Source: a virus
Length of the DNA stretch: 42,459 nucleotides
IMG/VR virus record: IMGVR_UViG_3300042472_000598
Span: 1-42,459 of that record
Direction: 5' to 3' (one strand)
Below the pieces are notes generated by a model. It made no database searches, was not told the DNA's origin, and worked only from the letters and a program-made list of their open reading frames with translations. Every line of letters begins with the position of its first letter. Position 1 is the first letter of the stretch. This document shows positions 6,870 to 21,084 of the stretch, piece by piece. Made by a program: the position numbers and the translations under genes.

Positions 6870-6945
6870 GCGGGATTAGCTCAGTTGGTAGAGCGATACC
6901 TTGCCAAGGTATAGGTCGAGAGTTCGAGCCTCTTATCCCGCTCCA
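6870..6945 (+). tRNA. tRNA-Gly(GCC)
   Basis: Cloverleaf with 7-bp acceptor GCGGGAT/ATCCCGC, anticodon loop TTGCCAA, encoded CCA. Lies between the leader-1 terminator and the array-1 promoter, so it is outside the boxA unit. Confidence 0.97.
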
Positions 6946-6960
6946 AAAGAGTTTTAAAGT

Positions 6961-6976
6961 GTTGTAAAAATACAAC
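6961..6976 (+). promoter_or_regulatory. 16-bp palindromic operator-like site (copy 1)
   Basis: GTTGTAAAAATACAAC, with half-sites GTTGTA and TACAAC, 20 bp upstream of the -35 box of array 1. The exact sequence recurs (reverse orientation) at 16556, and one- to three-base variants occur at 30608, 30634, 31384 and 34420, all near promoters. Confidence 0.6.
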
Positions 6977-6996
6977 AAAAAACTTTCAAATAAGTG

Positions 6997-7025
6997 TTGA
7001 CAAAGTGGCTTAACTGTCGTATAAT
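6997..7025 (+). promoter_or_regulatory. Sigma70 promoter of tRNA array 1
   Basis: Perfect consensus: TTGACA (6997-7002), 17 bp, TATAAT (7020-7025). Followed by the boxA at 7065 and the first array tRNA at 7150. Confidence 0.9.
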
Positions 7026-7064
7026 TGATACTTACACAGCAACAAACGATAGAGTAGTTGTTTA

Positions 7065-7080
7065 GTTCTTTAACAATTTA
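7065..7080 (+). promoter_or_regulatory. rRNA-type boxA antitermination element
   Basis: GTTCTTTAACAATTTA closely matches the boxA of proteobacterial rRNA leaders (E. coli rrn core TGCTCTTTAACA). BoxA RNA is bound by NusB-NusE (S10) and protects long untranslated transcripts from Rho. A 3.3-kb tRNA/ncRNA transcript would need exactly that. Its last bases form the 5' arm of an 18-bp inverted repeat. Confidence 0.75.
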
Positions 7081-7086
7081 GTGGCA
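7069..7086 (+). repeat. 18-bp inverted repeat, 5' arm, enclosing array 1
   Basis: TTTAACAATTTAGTGGCA is the exact reverse complement of 10346-10363. The pair encloses 11 tRNAs, two coding genes and the structured RNAs, like the processing stalks that enclose 16S and 23S rRNA. Confidence 0.85.
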
Positions 7087-7149
7087 ATTTTTATGTAAGC
7101 ACATTAACTTGAACGGATTCTTTCCTAGTATTGCTTTTGTGTTTACCAT

Positions 7150-7224
7150 GCTCGATTCGTCTATCGGTTAGGACGCTGGCCTTTCACGCCGGAAAGAGGG
7201 GTTCGATTCCCCTATCGAGTACCA
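7150..7224 (+). tRNA. tRNA-Glu(TTC)
   Basis: Anticodon loop CTTTCAC on stem CTGGC/GCCGG, T-loop TTCGATT, encoded CCA. Acceptor starts with a G-U pair. The CCA directly abuts the long stem of the following structured RNA. Confidence 0.97.
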
Positions 7225-7370
7225 TTTGTTTAGTGTTATCAGGGTATCGTGTGCAGACGTGTACACTATGCGGGCCTAACTGGCGAGGGACAGGTCCTAA
7301 TATAACTGCTTAGTCGCTATGGACGGAAGCGCAACTGACTCCTAAATTGAGCAGATAGCACTAAACAAAT
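7225..7370 (+). ncRNA. Structured RNA element a, closed by a 16-bp stem
   Basis: Bases 7225-7240 pair with 7354-7369 over 16 bp with one G-U, enclosing about 113 nt with smaller helices (for example GTGT/ACAC near 7250-7268). The helix fills the whole gap between tRNA-Glu and tRNA-Leu. No significant reading frame. RNase III could cut the stem and release the flanking tRNAs. I do not recognise the family. Confidence 0.6.
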
Positions 7371-7374
7371 GTAT

Positions 7375-7459
7375 GCGAGTATGGAGAAATCGGTATACTC
7401 AAGAGACTTAAAATCTCTCGTCGAAAGGCATCCCGGTTCGACCCCGGGTACTCGCACCA
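7375..7459 (+). tRNA. tRNA-Leu(TAA)
   Basis: Class II tRNA with long variable arm (TCGTCGAAAGGCA region), anticodon loop CTTAAAA, acceptor GCGAGTA/TACTCGC, encoded CCA. Reads UUA/UUG. Confidence 0.97.
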
Positions 7460-7465
7460 AGTTTA

Positions 7466-7542
7466 GGAGTGGTAGATCAGCTGGTTAGATTACCTGCCTG
7501 TCACGCAGGGGGTCGCGGGTTCGAGTCCCGTCCACTCCGCCA
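7466..7542 (+). tRNA. tRNA-Asp(GTC)
   Basis: Acceptor GGAGTGG/CCACTCC, anticodon loop CTGTCAC, discriminator G, encoded CCA. Confidence 0.97.
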
Positions 7543-7550
7543 AATCCCGT

Positions 7551-7822
7551 TACTATTTTCGTTAAAATAGCGTTTGATTAGCGATAGAGATCCGGTGGCA
7601 GAAAACCGTAAGCGTGGGGCTGGAAACTACCCCTACAGACTCTGATAGGCAGTATCCTTCTGCACACAGACTTTGAATAAAAAGGATGGACAGAGTAACC
7701 GCTCAATTTAAGGGCTGGTGTGGAAACCAGTAGCTTAATCCTAATTTTGTAGCAGTAGTAGTTACGGGCACTTCCGGCAACAGGAGGCGCTGACTAGCAG
7801 GGTGCAACTCCCTCGGCTACAT
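7551..7822 (+). ncRNA. Structured RNA element b with pseudoknot and tRNA-like 3' end
   Basis: Hairpins seen: CTATTTT/AAAATAG (7553-7570), CGGT/ACCG (7593-7608), GGGG/CCCC (7616-7633), CTGGT/ACCAG (7715-7730). A 6-bp stem (7639-7644 with 7691-7696) encloses hairpin GCAG/CTGC (7649-7663) whose loop ATCCTT is complementary to AAGGAT at 7682-7687, a likely pseudoknot. The 3' part (7748-7822) resembles a tRNA: TGTAGC/GCTACA acceptor, CTTCC/GGAGG stem with a 7-nt loop, and an AGGG/CCCT arm whose loop TGCAACT keeps T54, C56, R57 and A58. There is no CCA and no D-arm. No coding frame. Family not recognised; it does not match tmRNA or RNase P RNA signatures that I know. Confidence 0.55.
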
Positions 7823-7829
7823 CTATTTT

Positions 7830-7890
7830 GAGAGCCACATCGCCTGGATACTTCCTCCTTGGAGCACTAGGTCCTGCAACCGTGGCTCTC
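7830..7890 (+). ncRNA. Structured RNA element c1
   Basis: A perfect 9-bp stem GAGAGCCAC/GTGGCTCTC (7830-7838 with 7882-7890) closes about 43 nt containing a CTCC/GGAG type hairpin. Sits directly after element b. No coding frame. Not recognised. Confidence 0.5.
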
Positions 7891-7900
7891 CCTTATATTA

Positions 7901-7980
7901 AAACACATTGACGTGTGACTGCGTCACTGTCTCAGTGAGAGGCCTGTTAAAGCTACAGGACATCAGTGTGTTTCAATATG
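7901..7980 (+). ncRNA. Structured RNA element c2, cloverleaf-like tRNA leader (copy 1)
   Basis: An 11-bp stem (7901-7911 with 7963-7973, one G-U) closes three small hairpins: GTGAC/GTCAC, CTC/GAG and CCTGT/ACAGG with a 7-nt loop. It ends in GTGTGTTTCAATATG, four bases before tRNA-Leu(TAG). The same stem and the same 15-base tail recur at 9296-9370 before tRNA-Ala. Confidence 0.55.
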
Positions 7981-7983
7981 ATA

Positions 7984-8068
7984 GCCCCCTTGGCGGAATT
8001 GGTAGACGCGGCAGATTTAGGTTCTGTTATCGAAAGGTGTGAGAGTTCGAGTCTCTTGGGGGGCACCA
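7984..8068 (+). tRNA. tRNA-Leu(TAG)
   Basis: Class II tRNA, long variable arm, anticodon loop TTTAGGT, acceptor GCCCCCT/GGGGGGC, encoded CCA. Only tRNA here for the CUN box. Confidence 0.96.
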
Positions 8069-8078
8069 GGTTTTGATG

Positions 8079-8186
8079 AGGGGGAGTGTGCATAGCGGCC
8101 CTGGGCCTACGGTGCCTACTCTTAAACAACAGCAGAGCAGTTACGCAAACATCGTAACATAAGACTTGGAGCCACTCCTGTGCCCC
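8079..8186 (+). ncRNA. Structured spacer RNA d
   Basis: GGAGTG (8083-8088) pairs with CACTCC (8173-8178), and inside lies hairpin GTTACG/CGTAAC (8140-8158) with a 7-nt loop. It occupies the gap between tRNA-Leu(TAG) and the radical SAM gene, so it may also act as that gene's 5' leader. No coding frame. Confidence 0.4.
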
Positions 8187-8208
8187 TTAGCACTTTATAA
8201 ATAGACGC

Positions 8209-9087
8209 ATGATACAATTAGATCAAGCAGAAGTTAGTTGGGCATTAAATGCACATTGTGGACATAAATGTTCATACTGTCATTCCCAATACAGTGGCGG
8301 TGAATTAGACAAGTCTGTTGATCAGTATCTGGCAATTATTAAAAAATTGCAGGATACAAGATACCAGCACCATTCTAAGATATACTGGAAAATCAGTGGA
8401 GGGGAACCCCTACACTTTCCGCATCTAAGCACAGTATTAAAAAAGATGAAAGAAAAGCCTTGCGTCATACGACTGGATACCAGTGGTGATGACAATTGGT
8501 TTTCATTGTACGGTGTTATAAATCTAATAGATAAAATAAAACTCACATATCATTCGTGGCAAAACGATGATGTGTTTGGTTTCGTACTAGAACAATGTCA
8601 AGAAAAGAATGTAAGTGTAACAATTGAAGTTCCATTGTTACCCGGTGCTATAGTAGAGTCTAGGGCCAAAGTAAAACATTTTGTAGACTTGGGATATGTA
8701 TGCAATGAACAGGTACTACGTGACTTAGGTGGCGACTTACATCGGGGATATAGTCAACTTGATGAAAACAGAATCTATGGTAGACCCGATGATTGGGAAC
8801 CAGAACTGGTTGTGTATAATCCAAACTTACCAGATCCCAACTATGTAGATTTAAGTACTGTCAATAACACTGATCCTGTGTACACTGGTATGCCATGTTA
8901 TGCAGGTGTTGATTGGTTGTACATAAACCCTAGGGGATTTGCCTCATACAGCCAATGTGGTGGCAGGAACGAACACTTTAATGCGTTTGATCCTGCATGG
9001 CAACCACCCAGCAATTCGTTCCCTTGCACAGTTAATCAGTGCAGGAGTGAACAGGATAGGACAAAAATAAGAATTCACAATTCTTAG
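8209..9087 (+). CDS. Radical SAM protein with SPASM-like C-terminus, inside tRNA array 1
   Basis: 292 aa. Radical SAM cluster motif C17-x3-C21-x2-C24 (HCGHKCSYC), then the SAM-binding KISGGEP (residues 61-67). The C-terminal 65 residues contain Cys at about 230, 250, 273 and 278, spaced like an auxiliary [4Fe-4S] SPASM/twitch domain. Such enzymes modify peptides or small molecules by radical chemistry. It is cotranscribed with tRNAs between two structured RNAs, so tRNA modification is possible, but SPASM domains more often go with peptide substrates. No clear ribosome site precedes the ATG; a TATAAA at 8196 lies seven bases upstream. Cluster supply could come from IscU/IscA at 28073. Confidence 0.8.
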   Translation: MIQLDQAEVSWALNAHCGHKCSYCHSQYSGGELDKSVDQYLAIIKKLQDTRYQHHSKIYWKISGGEPLHFPHLSTVLKKMKEKPCVIRLDTSGDDNWFSLYGVINLIDKIKLTYHSWQNDDVFGFVLEQCQEKNVSVTIEVPLLPGAIVESRAKVKHFVDLGYVCNEQVLRDLGGDLHRGYSQLDENRIYGRPDDWEPELVVYNPNLPDPNYVDLSTVNNTDPVYTGMPCYAGVDWLYINPRGFASYSQCGGRNEHFNAFDPAWQPPSNSFPCTVNQCRSEQDRTKIRIHNS

Positions 9088-9094
9088 TACAGAA

Positions 9095-9290
9095 CGTTCC
9101 GAGTGTCTTCGGATAGTGTGACCCACACGATGAGAAGTAGTGTGACAACTACGGGTGGTAGTCTTCGAACCCAAAGGCCGCTAGCAATGCGAGAACGGTC
9201 CCTGTCGGGAAGCGGGTGGAAGGAGTGTGTGATGGGTATGATAGCGTCATATCTTGATACTCTATAATTACCGCCGGGGGATGCAGAGCA
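9095..9290 (+). ncRNA. Hairpin-rich untranslated region e1
   Basis: Follows the radical SAM stop. Small hairpins are visible: CCGA/TCGG near 9101-9113, GTGTG/CACAC (9116-9128), GTAGT/ACTAC near 9137-9152. No coding frame of note. It may be one RNA with element c2-like 9296-9370, or part of the radical SAM 3' UTR. Confidence 0.4.
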
Positions 9291-9295
9291 TATTG

Positions 9296-9370
9296 AAGCA
9301 CATTAAAGATAGGGTCGTAGCGGTTCCATGAACTTGAGTACATACCAAGGTAGTTAGTGTGTTTCAATAT
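9296..9370 (+). ncRNA. Structured RNA element, copy 2 of c2 tRNA-leader motif
   Basis: AAGCACATTAA (9296-9306) pairs with TTAGTGTGTTT (9354-9364) over 11 bp with two G-U pairs, closing small hairpins such as GTTC/GAAC. Its tail GTGTGTTTCAATATG is identical to copy 1 (7966-7980) and ends five bases before tRNA-Ala. The interior differs from copy 1 while the closing stem is kept, which suggests selection on structure. Confidence 0.55.
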
Positions 9371-9375
9371 GTTTT

Positions 9376-9451
9376 GGGGGTGTAGCTCAGTTGGGAGAGC
9401 GTCTGCTTTGCAAGCAGAATGTCGCAGGTTCGATCCCTGTCACCTCCACCA
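9376..9451 (+). tRNA. tRNA-Ala(TGC)
   Basis: Acceptor GGGGGTG/CACCTCC, anticodon loop TTTGCAA, encoded CCA. Sole Ala tRNA. Confidence 0.97.
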
Positions 9452-9468
9452 ATATTAAGGAGAAAGCT

Positions 9469-9636
9469 ATGAGTGATGGCGGTAAAGGATCTGCGCCAAG
9501 GCCAAAAAGTGTTGATGCAAATACATTTGCAAGCAATTGGGAATTGGCGTTTGGCAAGAAGAAATCTCAAGAAGAAATGATTGATGAAGAGATTGAAGTC
9601 GAAGGCACTGTCAAAGACAGTGAACAAGGCGGATAA
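9469..9636 (+). CDS. Small hydrophilic phage protein, 55 aa
   Basis: Begins MSDGGKGSAPRP after AAGGAG with ideal spacing. It has a WELAFGKKK centre and an acidic tail. I recall similar short proteins with a GGKGSxPRP start in other large phages, function unknown. It lies between tRNA-Ala and tRNA-Val, so its mRNA would be cut out by tRNA processing. Confidence 0.8.
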   Translation: MSDGGKGSAPRPKSVDANTFASNWELAFGKKKSQEEMIDEEIEVEGTVKDSEQGG

Positions 9637-9646
9637 GTAAAGTGCT

Positions 9647-9722
9647 GGGTCGTTAGCTCAGTTGGTAGAGCGTCTGCCTTACACGCAGAATGTCGGCGGT
9701 TCGAGCCCGTCACGACCCACCA
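9647..9722 (+). tRNA. tRNA-Val(TAC)
   Basis: Acceptor GGGTCGT/ACGACCC, anticodon loop CTTACAC, encoded CCA. Confidence 0.97.
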
Positions 9723-9729
9723 AAATTTA

Positions 9730-9805
9730 GCCCTTATAGCTCAGCTGGTAGAGCAACTGATTTGTAATCAGTAGGTCCCGTGTTCGAATCATGGTGGGGG
9801 CACCA
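9730..9805 (+). tRNA. tRNA-Thr(TGT)
   Basis: Anticodon loop TTTGTAA on ACTGA/TCAGT. Acceptor GCCCTTA/TGGGGGC has two G-U pairs. Encoded CCA. Confidence 0.96.
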
Positions 9806-9812
9806 AATATCT

Positions 9813-9889
9813 CGGAGTGTAGCGCAGTCTGGTAGCGCACCTGGTTTGGGACCAGGGGGTCCAAGGTTCGAATCCTTGTACTCCGACCA
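9813..9889 (+). tRNA. tRNA-Pro(TGG)
   Basis: Acceptor CGGAGTG/TACTCCG, anticodon loop TTTGGGA on CCTGG/CCAGG, encoded CCA. Confidence 0.97.
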
Positions 9890-9894
9890 TGTTG

Positions 9895-9968
9895 GCGGGA
9901 TTCGTAAAATGGTATTACCTTAGATTTCCAATCTAAAGTCGGGAGTTCGATTCTCCCATCCCGCTCCA
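9895..9968 (+). tRNA. tRNA-Gly(TCC)
   Basis: Acceptor GCGGGAT/ATCCCGC, identical to tRNA-Gly(GCC), but anticodon loop TTTCCAA. Encoded CCA. With the GCC species it covers all GGN codons. Confidence 0.97.
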
Positions 9969-9970
9969 AG

Positions 9971-10174
9971 AACCCGGGCGCCCTTGCCCGTTATACAAAG
10001 GGGGGAATACTGGCAAACCCATAGACGCCACGGTGCATTGGATCTACCGCAAGGTTCCCTTTAGGAACTACTTGAGAAATCACAAAGGCAGGGACGCTAA
10101 CCTGTCTAAATAGAAAAGTACGTAGACAGAGTAGACTGCTCAGTCCGGGGCCTATGTGGTGTAGGTAGCCGGAC
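9971..10174 (+). ncRNA. Structured RNA element f before the initiator tRNA
   Basis: Hairpins CGGGC/GCCCG (9975-9990), TGTCTA/TAGACA (10103-10128) and a two-tier hairpin GTCCGG/CCGGAC (10143-10174) with inner CCTA/TAGG. Fills the gap between tRNA-Gly(TCC) and tRNA-fMet. No plausible coding frame. Not recognised. Confidence 0.5.
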
Positions 10175-10183
10175 ACTAATTAT

Positions 10184-10259
10184 CGCGGGGTACGTCAGTG
10201 GCCAGACTGCTAGGCTCATAACCTAGAAGACGGAGGTTCGAATCCTTCCCCCGCAACCA
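10184..10259 (+). tRNA. Initiator-type tRNA-fMet(CAT)
   Basis: The first base C cannot pair with A72 (CGCGGGG against CCCCGCA), the hallmark that allows formylation of bacterial initiator tRNA. Anticodon loop CTCATAA on CTAGG/CCTAG; only two of the three G-C pairs usual in initiators are present. Encoded CCA. Confidence 0.9.
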
Positions 10260-10265
10260 ACACAT

Positions 10266-10341
10266 TCCCTGATAGCTCAGTTGGTAGAGCACACGACTGT
10301 TAATCGTGTTGTCCCTGGTTCGAGCCCAGGTCGGGGAGCCA
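10266..10341 (+). tRNA. tRNA-Asn(GTT)
   Basis: Acceptor TCCCTGA/TCGGGGA, anticodon loop CTGTTAA on CACGA/TCGTG, encoded CCA. Last tRNA of array 1. Confidence 0.97.
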
Positions 10342-10345
10342 AATA

Positions 10346-10363
10346 TGCCACTAAATTGTTAAA
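10346..10363 (+). repeat. 18-bp inverted repeat, 3' arm, closing array 1
   Basis: TGCCACTAAATTGTTAAA, exact reverse complement of 7069-7086, beginning four bases after the CCA of tRNA-Asn. Pairing would seal the primary transcript and also cover most of boxA. Confidence 0.85.
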
Positions 10364-10369
10364 AAACAC

Positions 10370-10398
10370 TTGACCATTCTGCGGATTTCATGTATAAT
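10370..10398 (+). promoter_or_regulatory. Sigma70 promoter
   Basis: TTGACC (10370-10375), 17 bp, TATAAT (10393-10398), driving the metalloprotease-like gene at 10427. Confidence 0.85.
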
Positions 10399-10426
10399 AG
10401 CGTTATTATACAGCAGAAAGAGCACC

Positions 10427-10828
10427 ATGGAATACCACATTGAAGCAGGTCCTAAAACACGCCGCTACATTGAGGCCATTCTGCCCAGCATGATGACTCA
10501 ACTGGGACTGAACCGTAGTCGTCGCTTGTTAATGATCAAAGTGGATCGTGACCTTGAGGACCAAGGTTCCACCATACCAATGTTGGGAATTGATACCTTT
10601 TTGGTGGTACTCAAGCCCACACGTAATATCTTAAATTTAGGCATAACCCTGGCACACGAGCTTACCCATGTAGCGCAATTTGCCAATGGTACTTTGCAGG
10701 TAACCCCAAAAGGTAAAAAATGGAAGGGCAAGTTCTATCCGACAGCGCACCCTTACTTGGAACAACCGTGGGAAGTGCAGGCGTTTGCTAGACAAGAGAT
10801 TGTTTTCAGAAAAGCAATAGAAAAATAA
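10427..10828 (+). CDS. HExxH metalloprotease-like protein (SprT-like), 133 aa
   Basis: The ATG at 10427 is chosen because it lies 28 bp after the -10 box behind an AAAGAG site. A zinc-peptidase motif HELTH (in LAHELTHVAQF) lies near residue 86, followed by a YPTAHPYLEQPWEVQAF segment whose Glu and His could give the third ligand. Small size and layout recall SprT/WLM-type metalloproteases, which in cells act on DNA-protein crosslinks; this is only a family-level suggestion. Substrate unknown. Confidence 0.7.
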   Translation: MEYHIEAGPKTRRYIEAILPSMMTQLGLNRSRRLLMIKVDRDLEDQGSTIPMLGIDTFLVVLKPTRNILNLGITLAHELTHVAQFANGTLQVTPKGKKWKGKFYPTAHPYLEQPWEVQAFARQEIVFRKAIEK

Positions 10829-10843
10829 TAGTTAAATAATACT

Positions 10844-11050
10844 ATGAATATCTCAAGAGCTGAACAAAGTAATATTCGCTACAGCCAAGAGCAGTATCGT
10901 CTGCAACAGATCCAATCTGAAAATTTACAAACCAAATATCATCAAAAAATTGTAGAACAACGCAGTTATGAAAGACTCATTGCTGAACGGGTTAGTCGTA
11001 ATCTTCGTTTAGATTTAGACAAAGGCCGCAACGTAGACATTGAATGTTAA
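10844..11050 (+). CDS. Small coiled-coil protein, 68 aa
   Basis: Almost wholly helical by composition: Gln, Glu, Lys and Arg rich with spaced Leu and Ile (residues 10-50). No ribosome site; ATG follows TAAATAATACT. Function unknown. Confidence 0.6.
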   Translation: MNISRAEQSNIRYSQEQYRLQQIQSENLQTKYHQKIVEQRSYERLIAERVSRNLRLDLDKGRNVDIEC

Positions 11051-11059
11051 GGAAGTATT

Positions 11060-11515
11060 ATGCCTTGGATTGAAAATGTAAGCCTGGGTGATATCCCAAA
11101 AGCCAAACACCACAACGCAGGTGAGAATAGTATGCTGATTCAAATTGTTGACCCAGATATGACTTTTCCTGCACCTATGCACCAGTTCAAAGAAACACAC
11201 CAGTTCAAGTTCTTAGATCTTGAAGGACCCGACGCTTACGGACATGAATTTAAAGTTACCGATGAGCAGGCGGAAAGTCTGGTTCAGCTCTTGCAACATG
11301 CCTTGGCTAATAGAATGAATGTTGTTGTGCATTGTGTTGCAGGTGTTTGCCGTAGTGGTGCAGTCTGCGAAGTTGGAGTCATGATGGGCTTTGATGACTG
11401 TGAAGCATTTCGTAGTCCCAACCTGCTGGTCAAGCACAAGATGATGAAGTACTTAGGCTGGACTTACGATGAAAATGAACCACATTCGATCAATGGTGAT
11501 GCAACCGATTGGTAA
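11060..11515 (+). CDS. Dual-specificity/tyrosine phosphatase-like protein, 151 aa
   Basis: Active-site loop HCVAGVCRSG (C92, R98) fits Cx5R(S/T) of cysteine phosphatases, preceded by the hydrophobic strand MNVVV. A candidate general-acid Asp lies in FLDLEGPD upstream. Start behind AAGGAAG. Cytoplasmic dephosphorylation of a protein, nucleotide or RNA end is expected. Such enzymes occur in several large phages. Confidence 0.75.
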   Translation: MPWIENVSLGDIPKAKHHNAGENSMLIQIVDPDMTFPAPMHQFKETHQFKFLDLEGPDAYGHEFKVTDEQAESLVQLLQHALANRMNVVVHCVAGVCRSGAVCEVGVMMGFDDCEAFRSPNLLVKHKMMKYLGWTYDENEPHSINGDATDW

Positions 11516-11518
11516 GCA

Positions 11519-16571: not shown

Positions 16572-16576
16572 ACCGG

Positions 16577-16616: not shown

Positions 16617-16624
16617 GGATTTCT

Positions 16625-16837
16625 ATGTTGACACTTAAACAACGAGCCGCAATCGAAGTGGCAAAAATTTTCATCTTGGCAATAGTTATTGGCACAGGTA
16701 CTGGCATTTTGCTTAATACTGTGCCACTGGCAATCATTGGCATTGGTGCATGTATCATCATGTTGGTGTTTGGTACCAAGATGATTTATGATACAAAGCT
16801 TTCACAACTGGAAGCAGAAGAAAAATTAAAAAGTTAA
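16625..16837 (+). CDS. Small membrane protein, 70 aa
   Basis: Two hydrophobic segments (about residues 13-32 and 33-52) and a charged C-terminal helix. AAAGGA site 5 bp before ATG. Function unknown. Confidence 0.7.
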   Translation: MLTLKQRAAIEVAKIFILAIVIGTGTGILLNTVPLAIIGIGACIIMLVFGTKMIYDTKLSQLEAEEKLKS

Positions 16838-16864
16838 ATTTTTTCACTATAAGTCAAATAAAGG

Positions 16865-16893
16865 TTGACAAGTAGACTAAGTAAGTGTATAAT
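16865..16893 (+). promoter_or_regulatory. Sigma70 promoter of leader 2
   Basis: TTGACA (16865-16870), 17 bp, TATAAT (16888-16893). ATG begins seven bases after the -10 box. Confidence 0.88.
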
Positions 16894-16900
16894 GATTACT

Positions 16901-17014
16901 ATGATGCAAAACATTTCTTATCAATCGCAAAGTTGGTGCTCTAAGCAGAGTATAAGCTTCTGTGCCTCTAAGTTTATGTCTTATCGTCATATTTCAGGAG
17001 CATGTCCAGGATAA
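16901..17014 (+). CDS. Leader peptide 2, 37 aa, Ser- and Cys-rich, leaderless start
   Basis: Starts with tandem ATGATG at the expected transcription start. Nine Ser and three Cys codons among 37; ends SGACPG. The last codons (17004-17010) form the antiterminator strand of the attenuator, so a ribosome reaching the stop would mask it. Could be a regulatory peptide or simply an untranslated RNA. Confidence 0.5.
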   Translation: MMQNISYQSQSWCSKQSISFCASKFMSYRHISGACPG

Positions 17015-17066
17015 AGTAATCTAGCCATTACTAACACCCTGGACTCGAAAGGCTCCAGGGTTTTTT
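17004..17066 (+). terminator. Attenuator: exclusive antiterminator and terminator, leader 2
   Basis: GTCCAGG (17004-17010) can pair with CCTGGAC (17038-17044); alternatively CCCTGGA (17037-17043) pairs with TCCAGGG (17054-17060), followed by TTTTTT. The two are mutually exclusive. The first strand is part of leader peptide 2. A ribosome at the stop should favour termination; one stalled early should favour read-through. Confidence 0.7.
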
Positions 17067-17080
17067 ATTGATAGGAAAAA

Positions 17081-17242
17081 ATGAAATCAGGTAACAAGAA
17101 ATTAAAAGAAGTTGAGTGGATTCGACAGCACACGTTAACACAAGAGCAGACTAAACAACTGATTCTAAACAAGTTAAAACGTGCTGAAGAAATGCATATC
17201 GCTTTTAAACGGCAGGAGATGTTGGTTCAAAAACATCGTTGA
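17081..17242 (+). CDS. Small basic helical protein, 53 aa
   Basis: Begins MKSGNKKLKEVEW behind AGGAAAAA; Lys, Gln and Glu rich, predicted helical. First gene beyond the leader-2 terminator, so the attenuator could control it together with array 2. Function unknown. Confidence 0.6.
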   Translation: MKSGNKKLKEVEWIRQHTLTQEQTKQLILNKLKRAEEMHIAFKRQEMLVQKHR

Positions 17243-17288
17243 TAGCAAAGTGTGTATAGGTAACGAGGACCTAGCCTGCACTTAAAAC

Positions 17289-17399
17289 ATGGGCAAACGG
17301 GCGGCGACTAGGATGAAATCCCTTGTGTGGGAGGAAAAATTAGATCGTATTAAAGCATTCTTTAAGAACAGGCAGCCTAAGTATTTTAGAGTGCTTTAA
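17289..17399 (+). CDS. Possible small basic protein, 36 aa
   Basis: Begins MGKRAATRMK and is Arg/Lys rich. No ribosome site. The region 17243-17432 otherwise holds only an ACACAC/GTGTGT hairpin at 17401-17422. Coding status doubtful. Confidence 0.3.
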   Translation: MGKRAATRMKSLVWEEKLDRIKAFFKNRQPKYFRVL

Positions 17400-17432
17400 T
17401 ACACACATTTGCAAGAGTGTGTTAGAAACATG

Positions 17433-17461
17433 TTGACAATCAACATGCAAAGCCTTATAAT
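17433..17461 (+). promoter_or_regulatory. Sigma70 promoter of tRNA array 2
   Basis: TTGACA (17433-17438), 17 bp, TATAAT (17456-17461), ending eight bases before the first tRNA, so that tRNA starts within a base or two of the transcript 5' end. Confidence 0.88.
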
Positions 17462-17469
17462 AAGATTAT

Positions 17470-17544
17470 GGGCTAATAGCTTAATGGTAAAGCAGTCGAC
17501 TCATAATCGATTGAGTGTAGGTTCAATTCCTACTTAGCCCACCA
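17470..17544 (+). tRNA. tRNA-Ile2(CAT), probably lysidine-modified
   Basis: Acceptor GGGCTAA/TTAGCCC, anticodon loop CTCATAA on a TCGA/TCGA stem resembling the GACTCATAATCG core of bacterial tRNA-Ile(CAU). Because separate initiator and elongator Met tRNAs exist, Ile2 reading AUA after host TilS modification is the best call; a second elongator Met is the alternative. Confidence 0.8.
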
Positions 17545-17553
17545 AACAATTTA

Positions 17554-17638
17554 GGAGATGCCGCCGTAATGGTATGGCAGGGGACTGTAAATCCTCCGAC
17601 TTCGGTCATAATAGGTTCGATCCCTATCATCTCCACCA
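17554..17638 (+). tRNA. tRNA-Tyr(GTA)
   Basis: Class II with hairpin variable arm (CCGACTTCGGTC), anticodon loop CTGTAAA, acceptor GGAGATG/CATCTCC, encoded CCA. Confidence 0.97.
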
Positions 17639-17642
17639 ATTT

Positions 17643-17716
17643 GTATCCATAGTGTAATGGCAGCATCGCGGTCTCCAAAACCGTCAGTCTAGGTTCGAGT
17701 CCTAGTGGGTACGCCA
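17643..17716 (+). tRNA. tRNA-Trp(CCA)
   Basis: Anticodon loop CTCCAAA on GCGGT/ACCGT, acceptor GTATCCA/TGGGTAC, discriminator G, encoded CCA. Confidence 0.96.
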
Positions 17717-17723
17717 AATAATA

Positions 17724-17815
17724 GGAAAGTGATGCAGGTGCGTTGGTGCGCCGACCAGCCTTGAAAACTGGGTTCTCAGAAATGGGATGGGGTTCGACTC
17801 CTCCGCTTTCCGCCA
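17724..17815 (+). tRNA. tRNA-Ser(TGA)
   Basis: Class II with long variable arm, anticodon loop CTTGAAA, C-A mismatch at pair 31-39, acceptor GGAAAGT/GCTTTCC, encoded CCA. Confidence 0.95.
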
Positions 17816-17818
17816 AAT

Positions 17819-17894
17819 GCCAAGATAGCTCAGTTGGTAGAGCACCGGTCTGAAGAATCGGGTGTGGTTGGTTCGATCCCAACTCTTGGTACCA
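17819..17894 (+). tRNA. tRNA-Phe(GAA)
   Basis: Acceptor GCCAAGA/TCTTGGT, anticodon loop CTGAAGA, encoded CCA. Confidence 0.96.
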
Positions 17895-17901
17895 AATTAA
17901 T

Positions 17902-17977
17902 GTGGGTGTGTACTGAATGGTTAGGTAGCGGATTGCAAATCCGTTTTATGCAGGTTCGATCCCTGTCACCCACTCCA
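17902..17977 (+). tRNA. tRNA-Cys(GCA)
   Basis: Acceptor GTGGGTG/CACCCAC with discriminator T as usual for Cys, anticodon loop TTGCAAA, encoded CCA. Confidence 0.95.
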
Positions 17978-17986
17978 AAATATTAC

Positions 17987-18060
17987 TGGGGGTTAGTTAA
18001 ATGGTATAACCGCGGATTTTGATTCCGCTGTCACAAGTTCGATTCTTGTACCCTCTGCCA
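17987..18060 (+). tRNA. tRNA-Gln(TTG)
   Basis: Anticodon loop TTTTGAT on GCGGA/TCCGC, discriminator G, encoded CCA. The first acceptor pair is U-U, acceptable because GlnRS prefers a weak 1-72 pair. Confidence 0.95.
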
Positions 18061-18079
18061 AATTTATCAGGAGTAACGT

Positions 18080-18202
18080 ATGAACTGGGAAGCATCTAAC
18101 AAAATTAACGAAAGGGCAATCCTAGAATGGACCCGAATGTGTAAAGCATACCGGGAGTATCTTTACCTCGGAAGATCTTCATCGCTATCGTATAATGGAT
18201 AA
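18080..18202 (+). CDS. Small hypothetical protein, 40 aa, overlapping tRNA-Arg
   Basis: ATG behind AGGAG. Begins MNWEASNKINERA with a WTRMCKAYREYLYL helix. The last 22 bases overlap the 5' end of tRNA-Arg(GCG), so tRNA processing would destroy the end of the message. Function unknown. Confidence 0.6.
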   Translation: MNWEASNKINERAILEWTRMCKAYREYLYLGRSSSLSYNG

Positions 18203-18255
18203 TACACCAGTTTGCGGAACTGGGAATTTAGGTTCGATTCCTGATGGCGGTACCA
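18181..18255 (+). tRNA. tRNA-Arg(GCG)
   Basis: Acceptor ATCGCTA/TGGCGGT (two G-U), anticodon loop TTGCGGA on CCAGT/ACTGG, encoded CCA. Bacteria usually read CGU/CGC with an inosine ACG tRNA; this G34 species is unusual. Confidence 0.93.
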
Positions 18256-18269
18256 ATATAAATATTTCA

Positions 18270-19013
18270 ATGAATCCAAATTTATTAATAATCAAAGACA
18301 TTGTAGGAACACCATTGATAACCAAGTTTAGAGGAGTAGATTCTGAATCTCGTTTCAATCATAATCTGGCCAATACTCCTGGCTTTAAAGCTGAATGGGC
18401 CAACTTTCCAATCACCTATAGTTTAAACAGCAACTACTATCGTTGCCCCGAATGGAAAGACATAGAGTGGGATAAAAGTGTTTTGTTGTTAGGCGACAGT
18501 TGGGCATTTGGCCAGGGGCTGGATCTTCCTTCAACCATCGCCAGCAGACTTAGTCATGAGCTAAACGGGATACCTGTGGTCAACCTTGGGCAAACTGGTA
18601 CCAGCTGGACATTTTCCTGGATTAATTCAGTTAGATTAGTTGAAGCTGGAATTAGGCCCCGGGCCGTGATTTATATTTGGACGCATACTGCACGTTACGC
18701 TCAGTTGCTAGAAAACAACATAACACACTCGCATGGGGCATGGGACGTTGACCAGCCAGGCTTAAGCCGAGAATATGCCATGGATCCGGTGCATTCTATG
18801 AACATGAGTATAGAGATTTTAAGATCAATTCGCACAATGTGGACTTGTCCACAACTGCATTACACTTGGAGTAAGCATGTTGAGTTGCCAGGAGTACACT
18901 ATCTTGGTAACTCAGAACTTGACAAAGCTCGTGATCTTATACATCCTGGTCCCAGATCAACTGCACAGTGGGCACGATCTATGGCACAGGAATTGTCAAG
19001 TAAAATTAACTAA
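18270..19013 (+). CDS. SGNH-type hydrolase-like protein, 247 aa
   Basis: LLLGDSWAFGQGL gives block I with the Ser; NLGQTGTSW resembles block II, and DLIHPGPRS near the C-terminus supplies Asp and His. The ATG at 18270 follows the tRNA CCA; no ribosome site. Related in plan to the proteins at 15546 and 36416. Possibly modifies a glycan by ester cleavage or acyl transfer. Confidence 0.65.
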   Translation: MNPNLLIIKDIVGTPLITKFRGVDSESRFNHNLANTPGFKAEWANFPITYSLNSNYYRCPEWKDIEWDKSVLLLGDSWAFGQGLDLPSTIASRLSHELNGIPVVNLGQTGTSWTFSWINSVRLVEAGIRPRAVIYIWTHTARYAQLLENNITHSHGAWDVDQPGLSREYAMDPVHSMNMSIEILRSIRTMWTCPQLHYTWSKHVELPGVHYLGNSELDKARDLIHPGPRSTAQWARSMAQELSSKIN

Positions 19014-19021
19014 TAAAATTT

Positions 19022-19097
19022 GGGACTATAGCTCAGCTGGTAGAGCAGTGGACTTTTAATCCATTGGTCGCGAGTTCGAATCTCGCTGGTCCCACCA
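19022..19097 (+). tRNA. tRNA-Lys(TTT)
   Basis: Acceptor GGGACTA/TGGTCCC, anticodon loop CTTTTAA, encoded CCA. Confidence 0.97.
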
Positions 19098-19098
19098 A

Positions 19099-19599
19099 TT
19101 ATTCAGAAGGTTTATCTATATTAATAGAAATAGATACTCTGTCACCAGATCCGGTGTTTATACCAGCTCTGTGATGCATGTCTTTTGAAAATAAAAACCA
19201 TGTGCCTGTTTCGCAGTTGTGCTTGGTCCACCGGTTACCAATTAGTAATTCCAATGGAGGGTGACTTGGTTTACAATTAACATAATACACTAAAACTTTA
19301 TCTCCTGAGTGTAAATGATAGTGTGACTTCATTATACCTCCGGTTAATGTAATATTATACCAACTTATCATTATTTGATCAGGTACAACCAAGTGCTTTA
19401 AGCAATCTAGTACTGGTGCAAATTCAGGCCAAAGATGCGGGTTGGCACCGGGGTTTGTTCGGGCTCCTGCGTGAGATTCCACTATTCTTTCAAAATGTTT
19501 ACTAGTAGGGTTAATCATAGCGATAGTCTTATCAGTGGAAGTATCCATGCATCGTTTCATCAATGCAGTATTATCAATATTAAGACGTCCAGTTAGCAT
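19099..19599 (-). CDS. Putative Fe(II)/2OG oxygenase (2OG-FeII_Oxy_5-like), 166 aa
   Basis: SWYNIT, then SHYHLHSGDKVLVYYV, GTWFLFSKDMHHRAG and DRVSISINI follow the order of the 2OG-FeII_Oxy_5 family: metal His residues near 93-97 and 142-143, and Arg154 as 2OG anchor. The start at 19599 is chosen because the longer frame runs into tRNA-Met on the other strand. Opposes the tRNAs of array 2. Substrate unknown. Confidence 0.6.
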   Translation of the reverse strand: MLTGRLNIDNTALMKRCMDTSTDKTIAMINPTSKHFERIVESHAGARTNPGANPHLWPEFAPVLDCLKHLVVPDQIMISWYNITLTGGIMKSHYHLHSGDKVLVYYVNCKPSHPPLELLIGNRWTKHNCETGTWFLFSKDMHHRAGINTGSGDRVSISINIDKPSE

Positions 19600-19627
19600 A
19601 AAATTATTTAGTGCAGACTTTCTATAT

Positions 19628-19702
19628 GGTGATATAGCACAGTGGTAGTGCATCTGCTTCATACGCAGAGTGTCGTAGGTTCAAATCCTACTATCACCAC
19701 CA
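19628..19702 (+). tRNA. Elongator tRNA-Met(CAT)
   Basis: Fully paired acceptor GGTGATA/TATCACC, anticodon loop TTCATAC on TCTGC/GCAGA, encoded CCA. The paired 1-72 separates it from the initiator. Confidence 0.93.
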
Positions 19703-19711
19703 AAATATTAT

Positions 19712-19787
19712 GGAGTTGTTAGTGTAAAGGTTAACACCACGGATTGTGATTCCGTTAATATGGGTTCGATTCCCATACTTCTCCCCA
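19712..19787 (+). tRNA. tRNA-His(GTG) with two acceptor mismatches
   Basis: Anticodon loop TTGTGAT, extra G at position -1 and C73 as required by HisRS, encoded CCA. Acceptor GAGTTGT/ACTTCTC has adjacent U-U oppositions at pairs 4-69 and 5-68. Confidence 0.9.
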
Positions 19788-19813
19788 ATATATAAGTATA
19801 CAACGTAATTTAC

Positions 19814-19889
19814 ACCGCTATAGCTCAGTTGGTAGAGCACCGCCTTGATAAGGCGTAGGTCCCTGGTTCGAGTCCAGGTGGCGGTACCA
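19814..19889 (+). tRNA. tRNA-Ile(GAT)
   Basis: Acceptor ACCGCTA/TGGCGGT, anticodon loop TTGATAA, encoded CCA. Confidence 0.96.
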
Positions 19890-19892
19890 ATT

Positions 19893-20090
19893 TTATTGTT
19901 TGTCTATCTTCTTGGCGATTTCGTGAGCCGTTTTAATTACCTTTTTAGGAAGGTCATGTGCAGGTTTTTCACCGTAGCCGTATTTCTTTTTGGCCACTGC
20001 CATTCCTACAGCATAAGGATTGTCTACTTTTTCTTCTACAGGTACGTCATTGATAATGTCAATGTATTTTCTTAGTAAGTTGCCACTCAT
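19893..20090 (-). CDS. Small hypothetical protein, 65 aa
   Basis: ATG at 20090 lies eight bases after AAGGA. Begins MSGNLLRKYIDIIND, with a Lys-rich C-terminal helix. The N-terminus resembles small phage proteins with an RYIDIIN-type start; function unknown. Confidence 0.65.
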   Translation of the reverse strand: MSGNLLRKYIDIINDVPVEEKVDNPYAVGMAVAKKKYGYGEKPAHDLPKKVIKTAHEIAKKIDKQ

Positions 20091-20158
20091 GATCAAATTC
20101 CTTTACAATATTTAACACCGTTAAATAAAGTATACTCATACTTTCGTACGAGTATCGT

Positions 20159-20233
20159 CGGTCCTTAGTTCAATGGATAGAATGCTTGGCTTCGAACCAA
20201 GTGGTGTGGGTTCGATTCCTGCAGGACCGGCCA
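20159..20233 (+). tRNA. tRNA-Arg(TCG)
   Basis: Acceptor CGGTCCT/AGGACCG, anticodon loop CTTCGAA, encoded CCA. An ATACTC/GAGTAT hairpin lies immediately upstream (about 20132-20155). Confidence 0.95.
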
Positions 20234-20239
20234 GTTATT

Positions 20240-20572
20240 TTAGCGCAGACCGCGAGCCAATCGCATTGGAATAACAGCGGCAATTTCGTCGTAGTCATCC
20301 ATGTCAATCACATCGTCGGTGCCAACTTCAATTATTTTTTCAACCAAGAAGTGCAGTAGTGTGTCACTGACAACATCTTCGCGTACCAGTTCTAGTATGC
20401 GGATAAGTGCAGGAATATTAAAGCTGACAGCAGGACCGTAGGCTTCTTTGGTTTCTACCATTGATTCATCTTCAGTTTCGCCATTGGTATCTGTTGTAGT
20501 ACCATTTCTATAATGTAGTACATATTTAGACTTGGGTAAAATTGTTTTGTTAGATTTTCTGTAGTATGCCAT
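20240..20572 (-). CDS. Hypothetical protein, 110 aa
   Basis: AAAGGAA site before ATG. The first 30 residues are basic (MAYYRKSNKTILPKSK), the rest acidic with a DMDDYDEI segment. No recognised domain. Confidence 0.7.
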   Translation of the reverse strand: MAYYRKSNKTILPKSKYVLHYRNGTTTDTNGETEDESMVETKEAYGPAVSFNIPALIRILELVREDVVSDTLLHFLVEKIIEVGTDDVIDMDDYDEIAAVIPMRLARGLR

Positions 20573-20659
20573 TTGGTTTCCTTTGTAGTTACTTAGACCA
20601 TCTATTTAAAATTACAAAATGAAAACATCACACTACTTTAGCCGATCTAGCAATTTGTC

Positions 20660-20688
20660 TTGACAAAGATCAATAAGTATCGTATAAT
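20660..20688 (+). promoter_or_regulatory. Sigma70 promoter before tRNA-Ser(GCT)
   Basis: TTGACA (20660-20665), 17 bp, TATAAT (20683-20688), 21 bp before the tRNA. Separates the end of array 2 into its own unit. Confidence 0.88.
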
Positions 20689-20709
20689 AAACAAATAGCA
20701 AAGAACACA

Positions 20710-20797
20710 GGAGCATTGGCCGACCGGTTAAGGCAACAGATTGCTAATCTGTCACTGCGTAAGTGGTGAGTAGGTTCGATTCCTACATGCTCCGCCA
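20710..20797 (+). tRNA. tRNA-Ser(GCT)
   Basis: Class II with long variable arm, anticodon loop TTGCTAA on ACAGA/TCTGT, acceptor GGAGCAT/ATGCTCC, encoded CCA. Confidence 0.97.
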
Positions 20798-20821
20798 ATT
20801 TTTACAACCAGAAAGACTCAG

Positions 20822-20977
20822 ATGATTAAACCAGGCAAAACATTCAAACTTAGCAAATCAACCAAGCGCATGATGTGCAGTATTGTTGACACTAAATCTC
20901 GCAATCAATACAAAGCAATGATGATTCAAGCCGAGCTTGCTGCCAATGTTATCATCAAACGCGAACCACGCAAGTAA
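20822..20977 (+). CDS. Small basic protein, 51 aa
   Basis: Begins MIKPGKTFKLSKSTK; Lys and Arg rich, ends KREPRK. Weak ribosome site (GAAAG). Sits between tRNA-Ser and tRNA-Arg. Function unknown; nucleic-acid binding possible from charge. Confidence 0.6.
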   Translation: MIKPGKTFKLSKSTKRMMCSIVDTKSRNQYKAMMIQAELAANVIIKREPRK

Positions 20978-21009
20978 TTTTCTACACAGGGGTTAGTTGA
21001 TTGAATTAT

Positions 21010-21084
21010 CTGGCGTTAGTACAATGGATAGTACATAGAGCTTCTACCTCTAGAATGTGGGTTCGATTCCTGCACGCCGGACCA
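21010..21084 (+). tRNA. tRNA-Arg(TCT)
   Basis: Acceptor CTGGCGT/ACGCCGG, anticodon loop CTTCTAC on TAGAG/CTCTA, encoded CCA. Its 3' half overlaps the likely start of the penicillin-binding protein gene. Confidence 0.94.

Follow-up and report, generated by a model that had tools for sequence, protein, structure and literature searches.

Besides tRNAs, the tRNA cluster of phage T4 encodes RNA C and RNA D, two stable transcripts without a known function. In Xanthomonas phage XacN1, each terminal repeat carries 26 canonical tRNAs that together serve all 20 amino acids, a set read as giving relative independence from the host (PMC5852040), and huge phages are described with up to 67 tRNAs, together with tmRNA and further translation genes (PMC7162821); the phrases "noncoding RNA" and "structured RNA", in those spellings, are absent from the text of the latter paper. 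GOLLD and ROOL, which occur in phages and prophages and frequently lie close to tRNA islands, are large structured RNAs with function unknown (PMC12286853).

The locus analyzed here is a 42-kb fragment of an uncultivated phage genome (IMGVR_UViG_3300042472_000598; its full 42,459 nucleotides are referred to as the window), A+T-rich at ~41% G+C, in which 27 tRNA genes lie at positions 6870 to 21084, every one on the plus strand. It resembles XacN1 as described in having tRNAs for all 20 amino acids (PMC5852040) but differs in its 8/4-type tRNA-Ser and interleaved structured RNAs, although the phage records that we compared by blastn may not include XacN1. Compared with the huge phages, the window is a 42-kb fragment, with no synthetase among the 30 open reading frames scanned in it. 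Less expected than a complete tRNA set are the conserved folded RNAs, at least three families designated f, c, and g, that are interleaved among the tRNA genes and that the original prediction does not mention. By description, these can be likened to T4 RNA C and RNA D, which also lie inside a phage tRNA cluster, but the window RNAs had no blastn match in the phage records. They are like GOLLD and ROOL in being structured RNAs near phage tRNA arrays (PMC12286853) but are about 150 to 220 nt long and differ in sequence and structure, and no Rfam 15 model matched them in any locus scanned.

The tRNA genes

Protein genes separate the array into two blocks. The 12 genes of the first (6870-10341) encode tRNA-Gly(GCC) (6870-6945), Glu(TTC) (7150-7224), Leu(TAA) (7375-7459), Asp(GTC) (7466-7542), Leu(TAG) (7984-8068), Ala(TGC) (9376-9451), Val(TAC) (9647-9722), Thr(TGT) (9730-9805), Pro(TGG) (9813-9889), Gly(TCC) (9895-9968), fMet(CAT) (10184-10259), and Asn(GTT) (10266-10341). 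The 15 of the second (17470-21084) encode an elongator tRNA(CAT) taken as Ile2 (17470-17544), Tyr(GTA) (17554-17638), Trp(CCA) (17643-17716), Ser(TGA) (approximately 17724-17815), Phe(GAA) (17819-17894), Cys(GCA) (17902-17977), Gln(TTG) (17987-18060), Arg(GCG) (18181-18255), Lys(TTT) (19022-19097), an elongator tRNA(CAT) taken as Met (19628-19702), His(GTG) with two mismatched acceptor pairs (19713-19787), Ile(GAT) (19814-19889), Arg(TCG) (20159-20233), Ser(GCT) (20710-20797), and Arg(TCT) (21010-21084). CCA is encoded by all 27 genes. The original prediction had listed 27 anticodons for this interval, and all of them are present: ARAGORN, one of the checks it had named, called 26 tRNAs, which already cover all 20 amino acids, the Rfam model RF00005 at its gathering threshold returned the identical 26 (42.2 to 77.7 bits), and the one missed, Ser(TGA), is the 8/4-type tRNA. 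A second assembly of the window's own virus (G020, locus L050) gave 25 RF00005 matches, as the same search did for the window, and its scores, among the matches listed, equal those of the window; the array is therefore not an artifact of a single assembly.

The best that Rfam gave for Ser(TGA) was a tRNA-Sec match below threshold (35 bits against a gathering threshold of 47); the gene drew no call from ARAGORN or from RF00005 at the gathering threshold and, taken alone, folded no better than its shuffles (z = -0.18). Its 42 blastn hits among the fetched loci (window and own virus included) reduced to 26 distinct sequences. Of these, 12 have G-C and 14 have A-T as the eighth acceptor pair, the 4-bp T-stem pairs in all 26, a canonical fifth T-stem pair would mismatch in all 26, and all eight acceptor pairs are formed in 25 (the exception, L052, forms five of eight). 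This covariation indicates that Ser(UGA) is a real 8/4-type tRNA-Ser. Mukai and co-workers reportedly described bacterial and phage serine tRNAs of this type in NAR in 2017, and the window's copy shares their 8-bp acceptor stem and 4-bp T-stem but, unlike them, is the sole reader of UCN codons within a full array. Because both finders missed it, standard finders can undercount phage tRNA sets.

The three tRNAs with a CAT anticodon fall one into each of three classes that recur across related phages. The tRNA at 10184 has the C1/A72 mismatch typical of initiators, with A29-U41 replacing one of the three usual G-C pairs; those at 17470 and 19628 are elongators with the anticodon loops CTCATAA and TTCATAC, which, from their resemblance to bacterial tRNAs, we take to be Ile2 and Met, respectively. 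The 434 CAT tRNAs of the fetched loci include 182 of the initiator class and 119 of each elongator class, and one tRNA of each class was found in 17 of the 24 loci with at least three CAT tRNAs (window included).

Codon coverage and make-up of the set

It had been predicted that every sense codon is covered. This holds, at 61 of 61 codons, if U34 reads C by superwobble in each of six boxes of four codons (those of Ala, Val, Thr, Pro, Leu-CUN, and Ser-UCN) and if Ile2 carries lysidine. It does not hold otherwise: 55 of 61 codons are readable if U34 cannot read C, with a loss of 5.1% of the counted codons, and 49 of 61 if U34 reads A and G only.

The make-up of the set is far from random. As a simple null, 27 tRNAs were drawn independently from the 4,980 tRNAs of the fetched loci in 100,000 trials, none of which reached 61 codons and one of which reached 20 amino acids; the draws held a mean of 18 distinct species, compared with 27 in the window, where, the three CAT classes aside, each anticodon occurs once. 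Together with ARAGORN, RF00005, the CAT classes, and the Ser(TGA) comparison, the draws bear out the prediction of a complete, nearly nonredundant 20-amino-acid set. Such completeness is not exceptional, being known in XacN1 (PMC5852040) and frequent in the sampled loci, where all 20 amino acids are covered in 23 of the 102 loci with at least 20 tRNAs. Of the 19 records linked by a shared DNA ligase, 14 had no tRNA match, including G005 (184 kb) and G010 (289 kb), and arrays thus come and go in that group.

Structured RNAs between the tRNA genes

Pattern scans and covariation delineate at least three RNA families on the plus strand of the window. The f RNA (9091-9289), of ~200 nt, has helices that covary, and kissing-loop and pseudoknot contacts are proposed for it; the c RNA (7225-7374), of ~150 nt, lies between tRNA-Glu and tRNA-Leu and is closed by a long terminal helix; and the g RNA (9969-10183) lies between tRNA-Gly and tRNA-fMet, with its 3' core alone resolved. 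A probable second g member of another 5' subtype was found by blastn at 7543-7757 and has no exact match to the g pattern. In viral contigs, the scans matched at least 120 stretches for f, 76 for c, and at least 120 for g. In the f alignment, 99.3% of cells are paired, 29 of 50 pairs changed on both sides, and none of 500 shuffles reached any of the five measures used. In the c alignment, 99.1% of cells are paired, 21 of 34 pairs changed on both sides, and four of the five measures beat the shuffles, the fifth (pair types) not standing above them (92/500). For f and c, covariation goes beyond both shuffled and slid controls. The result for g is the weakest: 98.0% of cells in the 3' core are paired and 6 of 16 pairs changed on both sides, with the search pattern itself fixing both sides of 4 of the 16, and three of five measures beat 500 of 500 shuffles while two did not.

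A tRNA lies within 1 kb of 131 of 137 f matches, 122 of 124 g matches, and all 79 c matches, and every tRNA counted in these intervals is on the same strand as the RNA (723 for f, 589 for g, and 461 for c; none on the opposite strand). The first paired base of f falls 2 to 5 nt past a tRNA 3' end in 41 of 68 nonredundant rows. Six f matches lack a nearby tRNA: two are chance matches in MAGs, and four are real f loci between protein genes, three of them in tRNA-free records, one of 213 kb. Among 80 loci fetched on the basis of protein or tRNA similarity, a model of f (R1) found it in 9 at 175 bits or higher (the nine from which the f pattern had been derived). The model also found f in 5 of the 66 loci that had been fetched for g and in none of 51 other loci, some of them tRNA bearing. 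Rfam 15 at the gathering threshold gave no family match for f, c, or g in the window, f alone gave none at E values up to 10, and in ten further loci, eight of which carry f, c, or g (L100 and L194 being one contig), nothing was matched at those places. The f and c RNAs, and probably g, are folded and under selection. All three recur in other phages and lie, with few exceptions, among co-oriented tRNAs; they occupy tRNA-like slots between the tRNA genes of many uncultivated phages and seem undescribed. With covariation that is clear for f and c, no Rfam 15 match in the loci scanned, and no blastn relatives in 50,697 phage records, they matter more to us than the tRNA set does.

Other plus-strand elements share the gaps. 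For a conserved hairpin (7823-7898), blastn found relatives in 44 loci, every one with a tRNA no more than 600 nt away; a hairpin just before tRNA-Ala (9290-9375) has relatives in 26 loci and, near its 3' end, a 16-nt stretch repeated exactly at 7965-7980; and a candidate conserved RNA element before tRNA-Ile2 (17230-17469) has relatives in 47 loci, with a tRNA within 600 nt in 43. With one mismatch allowed, pattern matching gave 15 promoter matches in the window, compared with 0.48 expected, 14 of them on the plus strand. Four of the six perfect sigma-70 type matches are at the array, on the plus strand: 6997-7025 (TTGACA-17-TATAAT), 16865-16893, 17433-17461 (ending 8 nt before tRNA-Ile2), and 20660-20688 (before tRNA-Ser(GCT)).

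Possible roles of the array

The explanation that we favor, and consider reasonably probable as a whole, is that the phage carries a nearly nonredundant decoding set that sustains translation, together with coprocessed structured RNAs that act separately. Several host-type promoters would probably drive transcription of the 27 tRNAs, with maturation left to host enzymes, and the set would sustain phage translation once host tRNAs run short, be it through shut-off, through anticodon nucleases, or through tRNA turnover. The f, c, and g RNAs would be transcribed and excised together with the tRNAs and may act as separate RNAs during infection, as presumed for GOLLD. Continued phage translation after a destruction of host tRNAs would be plausible, and a complete nonredundant set argues for replacement of the host decoding set rather than topping up.

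Several observations count against this explanation. Six C-ending codons need superwobble. XacN1 is described as encoding a CCA tRNA nucleotidyltransferase and other tRNA-processing proteins (PMC5852040), whereas four such families stayed below cutoff in seven records related to the window: RNA ligase (PF09414), RtcB (PF01139), and the CCA-adding PolyA_pol family (PF01743) had no match in the seven, and the TilS family (PF01171), which bears on the lysidine of Ile2, had sub-threshold matches in two, one of them G020. In addition, f can stand alone between protein genes, the DNA ligase relatives are mostly tRNA-free, R1 found no f in the 51 other loci, and the g result is weak.

Were the tRNAs instead matched to codons commoner in the phage than in its host, completeness would be a by-product. 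The XacN1 authors report such a tendency (PMC5852040), and the A+T-rich window could be mismatched to a G+C-rich host, but codon compensation predicts a biased subset, whereas the window covers every box without repeating an anticodon outside the CAT classes, and we judge this explanation unlikely. Nuclease-resistant phage tRNAs might also replace host tRNAs cleaved as a defense, as has been proposed for mycobacteriophages (PMC10264068), and a Pnk-like kinase is encoded upstream of the array (2783-3268). This kinase by itself does not make a tRNA repair system, however, and the PF09414 ligase and RtcB are absent from the seven related records; evasion of anticodon nucleases, which we entertain tentatively, overlaps with the sustained-translation explanation and does not exclude it.

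With respect to f, c, and g, a role in cis as processing signals, stabilizers, or spacers of long transcripts, rather than as independent RNAs, would fit their frequent abutment on tRNA ends. It would also fit the four f loci between protein genes: there f begins 1 to 12 nt downstream of a stop codon and cannot be freed by tRNA processing, and in three of the four, a reading frame of 55 to 183 codons starts 12 to 28 nt past f. Yet the many invariant positions of f, some outside the search pattern, and its covarying loop-loop contact exceed the needs of a spacer, and the adjoining tRNA varies (Tyr, Ser, Asp, Glu, Pro, and others), so that a cis-acting role looks rather doubtful. The placement of f beside many different tRNAs and also after stop codons, and its compact form with proposed pseudoknot contacts, could likewise suggest mobile, intron-like or self-excising RNA elements landing in tRNA arrays. 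We consider this quite improbable, as f has no Rfam intron-family match in the window and the f-bearing loci scanned and, in the loci inspected, sits between genes and never inside one.

RNA genes skipped by annotation can lie concealed in the gaps of phage tRNA arrays, and f, c, and g are defined targets for tests of expression, structure, and function. A wider and somewhat unlikely possibility is that the tRNA arrays of large uncultivated phages house a whole kit of genes for structured RNAs not yet described (f, c, g, and probably others) beside tRNAs, GOLLD, and tmRNA. These structured RNAs would be released from shared transcripts and would work in trans during infection, taking over translation or shielding it. 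GOLLD (RF02032) had no match in the window, nor in 6600-21500 at E values up to 5; it shares an array with f, at a place other than that of f, in L100/L194 (one contig) and L134.

Structured RNA families between the tRNA genes

Several gaps in the tRNA array lack a notable reading frame; their sequences fold strongly and recur in related form on other phage contigs that bear tRNAs. These interleaved RNA families, more than the tRNA set, are what raises the interest of the finding. One of them, which we call f (window 9091-9289, + strand), was defined by a search pattern, an alignment, and covariation. The pattern, derived from ten aligned sequences, had at least 120 matches in viral contigs of up to 525 kb. 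The rule used recognized both ends in 114 of the 121 pattern sequences, the window's among them, and 68 remained after removal of those 95% alike; the seven dropped comprised one starting too near its end and six without the 3′ signature, three of which reach the end of the fetched piece and three of which have a variant end.

RNAalifold assigned 45 pairs to the 68 aligned f sequences, with both-side changes in 26. Among the top 20 covarying column pairs, 15 fall in the RNAalifold helices, one links the loops of helices P2 and P4, and the remaining four are found elsewhere, with three in the variable arm. The P2-P4 loop contact (columns 18 and 60) is GC in 42 rows, AT in 23, and GT in 3. This contact was added to the structure by hand, as was a proposed GGY/RCC pseudoknot, which shows compensatory change in 2 of 68 rows and whose 5′ side is mostly fixed by the pattern. 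In the final structure, 99.3% of cells are paired, both sides change in 29 of 50 pairs, and 438 cells are compensatory, against a shuffle average of 124.6 and at most 55 for slid structures.

Besides the copy in the window, a covariance model of f (R1) detected the RNA in 9 of the 80 loci retrieved by protein or tRNA similarity, always at 175 bits or more. Because these nine loci had supplied the f pattern (two of their contigs, L194 and L236, are also in the model alignment), this search demonstrates the discreteness of f and its frequency in the sample and is not a validation on unseen sequences. The ORF at 21001-21942 begins within the tRNA-Arg gene, and the 43 of 80 loci that match it in its first 33 residues only therefore match just a tRNA gene; all 80 were retained as a sample not picked by the f pattern. 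R1 also detected f in 5 of the 66 loci (L253-L318) retrieved for the g family described below, two of these matches being truncated at an end, and in none of 51 other loci.

The c RNA (window 7225-7374, + strand) was likewise defined by pattern, alignment, and covariation. Its pattern occurs in 76 stretches of viral contigs, a count that includes two (L357 and L249) from the window's own or a nearly identical virus. Complete rows numbered 73 and fell to 31 after removal of those 90% alike; adding the window and omitting L249, which is nearly the window itself, again gave 31. In these rows, 99.1% of cells are paired and both sides change in 21 of 34 pairs, while the number of pair types shows no excess over shuffles (92 of 500).

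The g RNA (window 9969-10183, + strand), defined by pattern and alignment in its 3′ core, is represented by at least 120 pattern matches in viral contigs; blastn revealed a probable second member at 7543-7757 on the same strand. Of 118 complete rows, 57 remained after removal of similar ones, and the first 40 of the 58 references obtained by adding the window were aligned. In the 3′ core only, 98.0% of cells are paired and both sides change in 6 of 16 pairs, 4 of the 16 being fixed on both sides by the search pattern. Compensatory cells number 74, against 19.4 in shuffles, and two of the five measures show no excess over shuffles. Columns fixed by a pattern are invariant by construction, and the f, c, and g pairs with two-sided changes fall outside these columns or at open positions in the patterns. 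The identification of f and c as structured RNAs is well supported; that of g is partly so, g being the least certain of the three.

A search against Rfam 15 gave no match to f, c, or g in the window or in the bearing loci scanned. A blastn search of 50,697 phage records, a method blind to RNAs conserved in structure only, found no relative of the window's f, c, and g, of 7543-7983, or of a second f, and among the titles and abstracts listed in a literature search we recognized nothing as any of the three. GOLLD and ROOL are described near tRNA islands in PMC12286853. Rfam placed GOLLD together with f in the arrays of L100/L194 and L134, and a permuted tmRNA accompanies f in L141 (Rfam) and in L076, L078, L117, and L122 (ARAGORN); arrays of this type therefore carry several kinds of non-coding RNA.

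Linkage to tRNA genes

All three families are closely linked to tRNA genes. Within 1 kb of their matches lie 723 (f), 589 (g), and 461 (c) same-strand tRNAs and none on the opposite strand; at least one same-strand tRNA lies that near in 131 of 137 f, 122 of 124 g, and all 79 c matches. These counts are of loci, not all of them distinct contigs, as certain contigs are represented by two loci each (L100/L194, L078/L188, L076/L236, L058/L392, and others). The first base of the f helix follows a tRNA 3′ end by 2 to 5 nt in 41 of 68 rows, and in 32 of 79 c matches a tRNA ends 16 to 18 nt 5′ of the motif, which is the length of c's 5′ arm.

The fetched pieces without a tRNA hold six f matches, of which two, in MAG contigs found with the pattern in genome contigs, gave no match to the f model and were counted as chance. 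For three of the others, the whole record (40.8, 212.6, and 22.8 kb) has no tRNA match; the remaining one, L197, lies in a 225-kb record that has 33 tRNAs, with a distance of about 90 kb or more to each of those listed. At all four, f starts 1 to 12 nt after a stop codon, and at three a reading frame of 55 to 183 codons starts 12 to 28 nt after f, the fetched piece of the fourth ending after f. These four loci favor f as an independent RNA gene, or as a cis element of transcripts generally, over a simple side product of tRNA processing. The f RNA is not bound to tRNAs.

The tRNA set and its decoding capacity

The original prediction of 27 tRNAs and their isotypes was correct. ARAGORN found 26 of the genes, and RF00005 at its gathering threshold found the same 26. 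The 27th, tRNA-Ser(TGA) at about 17724-17815, was visible before comparison just as a weak tRNA-Sec match, and taken alone it folds no better than shuffles (z −0.18). A layout with 8 acceptor and 4 T-stem pairs leaves no position unpaired; the canonical 7/5 layout has a mismatch. In a set of 26 distinct sequences that contains the window's own, 12 have G-C and 14 have A-T as the eighth acceptor pair, the 4-bp T-stem is paired in all 26, and the canonical fifth T pair is mismatched in all 26. On recheck, all eight acceptor pairs were complete in 25 of 26, the exception being L052 (5 of 8 in the register used), and a C/A occupies the pair adjoining the anticodon loop in every sequence. This pattern identifies Ser(TGA) as a conserved 8/4-type serine tRNA, a type known from phages. 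The tRNA-Sec family (RF01852) was rejected for this gene because the match falls short of the threshold and because the gene has a UGA anticodon and an 8/4 acceptor branch.

Three tRNAs have the anticodon CAT, at 10184, 17470, and 19628, and from their sequences they are taken as fMet, Ile2, and Met, respectively. One has the initiator C1/A72 mismatch, and the two elongators have the loops CTCATAA, presumably Ile2, and TTCATAC, presumably Met, both by likeness to bacterial tRNAs. In the 434 CAT tRNAs of the fetched loci, the same three classes have 182, 119, and 119 members; one of each is present in 17 of the 24 loci with at least three CAT tRNAs. BLAST was uninformative for the elongators; for the tRNA at 10184, the annotated matches listed were tRNA-Met.

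The accompanying claim that every sense codon is covered depends on wobble. The claim stands, with all 61 sense codons read, if U34 can pair with any base in the four-codon boxes; otherwise it does not, since 55 are read (5.1% of codons lost) if U34 does not read C and 49 (15.2% lost) if it reads A and G only. These percentages refer to 11,063 codons in 60 chosen ORFs, two of which, by the mechanical rule used, begin within a tRNA gene.

In 100,000 random draws of 27 from 4,980 phage tRNAs, full codon cover never occurred and all 20 amino acids occurred once, which implies that the window's set was shaped by selection or history. A complete set is not rare in our sample: of the 102 loci that have 20 or more tRNAs, a count that takes in the window and has one contig twice, 23 show all 20 amino acids within the fetched piece. 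These loci were chosen by tRNA, RNA, or protein similarity and give no frequency for phages at large. XacN1 is described as carrying, in each terminal repeat, 26 canonical tRNAs that serve 20 amino acids (PMC5852040), and up to 67 tRNAs are given for huge phages (PMC7162821). Taken alone, the window's tRNA set is of a kind already known from other phages. We favor the reading that the phage set replaces host tRNAs that are putatively lost; host tRNA depletion is discussed as a driver in PMC10264068, citing Yang and others 2021.

The tRNA-His (19713-19787) has two mismatched acceptor-stem pairs. The anticodon of tRNA-Arg(GCG) (18181-18255) was listed by ARAGORN 7 times among 4,995 tRNAs of the fetched loci, versus 105 for ACG, and the 7 may include the window's own gene up to three times (L050 and L130 too). 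Outside the window, ARAGORN made 103 tRNA-Ile(TAT) calls in 102 fetched loci, 99 of them 90 to 96 nt with a long variable arm (for example, L100:6007-6098, L255:4203-4294, and L260:11033-11124); these would be class II-like isoleucine tRNAs reading AUA without lysidine.

Expression, relatives, and host

The window has six perfect TTGACA-17-TATAAT sites, all on the + strand and four at tRNA blocks, one of which ends 8 bases 5′ of tRNA-Ile2; with up to one mismatch there are 15, against 0.48 expected. These promoter matches suggest that the array is transcribed by the main RNA polymerase of the host. Two similar G+C-rich hairpins followed by T runs, at 6760-6869 and 16990-17075, lie upstream of the two tRNA blocks and, judged by eye, might be leader terminators or attenuators; terminator scans listed neither.

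In seven related records, no TilS-type protein reached the cut-off, with subthreshold matches in two, one being G020 (see below), and PF09414 RNA ligase, RtcB, and PolyA_pol had no match. Charging, maturation, and modification of the tRNAs are probably supplied by the host. A protein with a Pnk-like kinase domain (2783-3268) is followed by a 346-aa protein without a recognized family (3265-4305), possibly a candidate RNA-repair pair. We found no support for the latter as an RNA ligase, and matches of the 15835-16533 protein to 2H phosphoesterases were weak only. PADLOC candidate-system matches of two B12-type radical SAM proteins and the kinase were taken as general domain similarity.

The window record (42,459 bases) is classed as linear and is probably a fragment. 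Among 30 ORFs scanned were a head-maturation-like Clp protease, an endolysin, an ATP-dependent DNA ligase, a subtilisin-like protease, radical SAM enzymes, and NifU. Metabolic genes at 13312-15520 and 28073-28453 encode AhpC/TSA-like, carboxymuconolactone decarboxylase-like, NAD/FAD oxidoreductase, and NifU proteins. A second assembly, L050 (record G020, 52,670 bases), has two compared proteins 100% identical to the window's and, by position, extends farther upstream; it has 25 RF00005 matches, with none of those listed upstream of the window's first tRNA. The 86,543-base record G001, with an identical ligase, appears to be the downstream continuation and gave no RF00005 match. Megablast of the window's first 25 kb matched 18 phage records, and the best places among the matches listed were all tRNA sized, so these records hold no close cultivated relative. 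Searched against viral contigs, 18195-19013 matched the same virus and no other.

Of 19 records sharing the DNA ligase, 14, including contigs of 184 and 289 kb, have no tRNA match; the array is therefore not essential to every member of the group. Two ligase-sharing relatives in records without a tRNA match carry a permuted tmRNA of the betaproteobacterial type (RF01850; L022:5481-5869 and L026:4862-5234), which hints at a betaproteobacterial host for the group. Another has a tRNA with the anticodon CTA, possibly an amber suppressor, at L049:12013-12087 (the same gene as L011:416-490).
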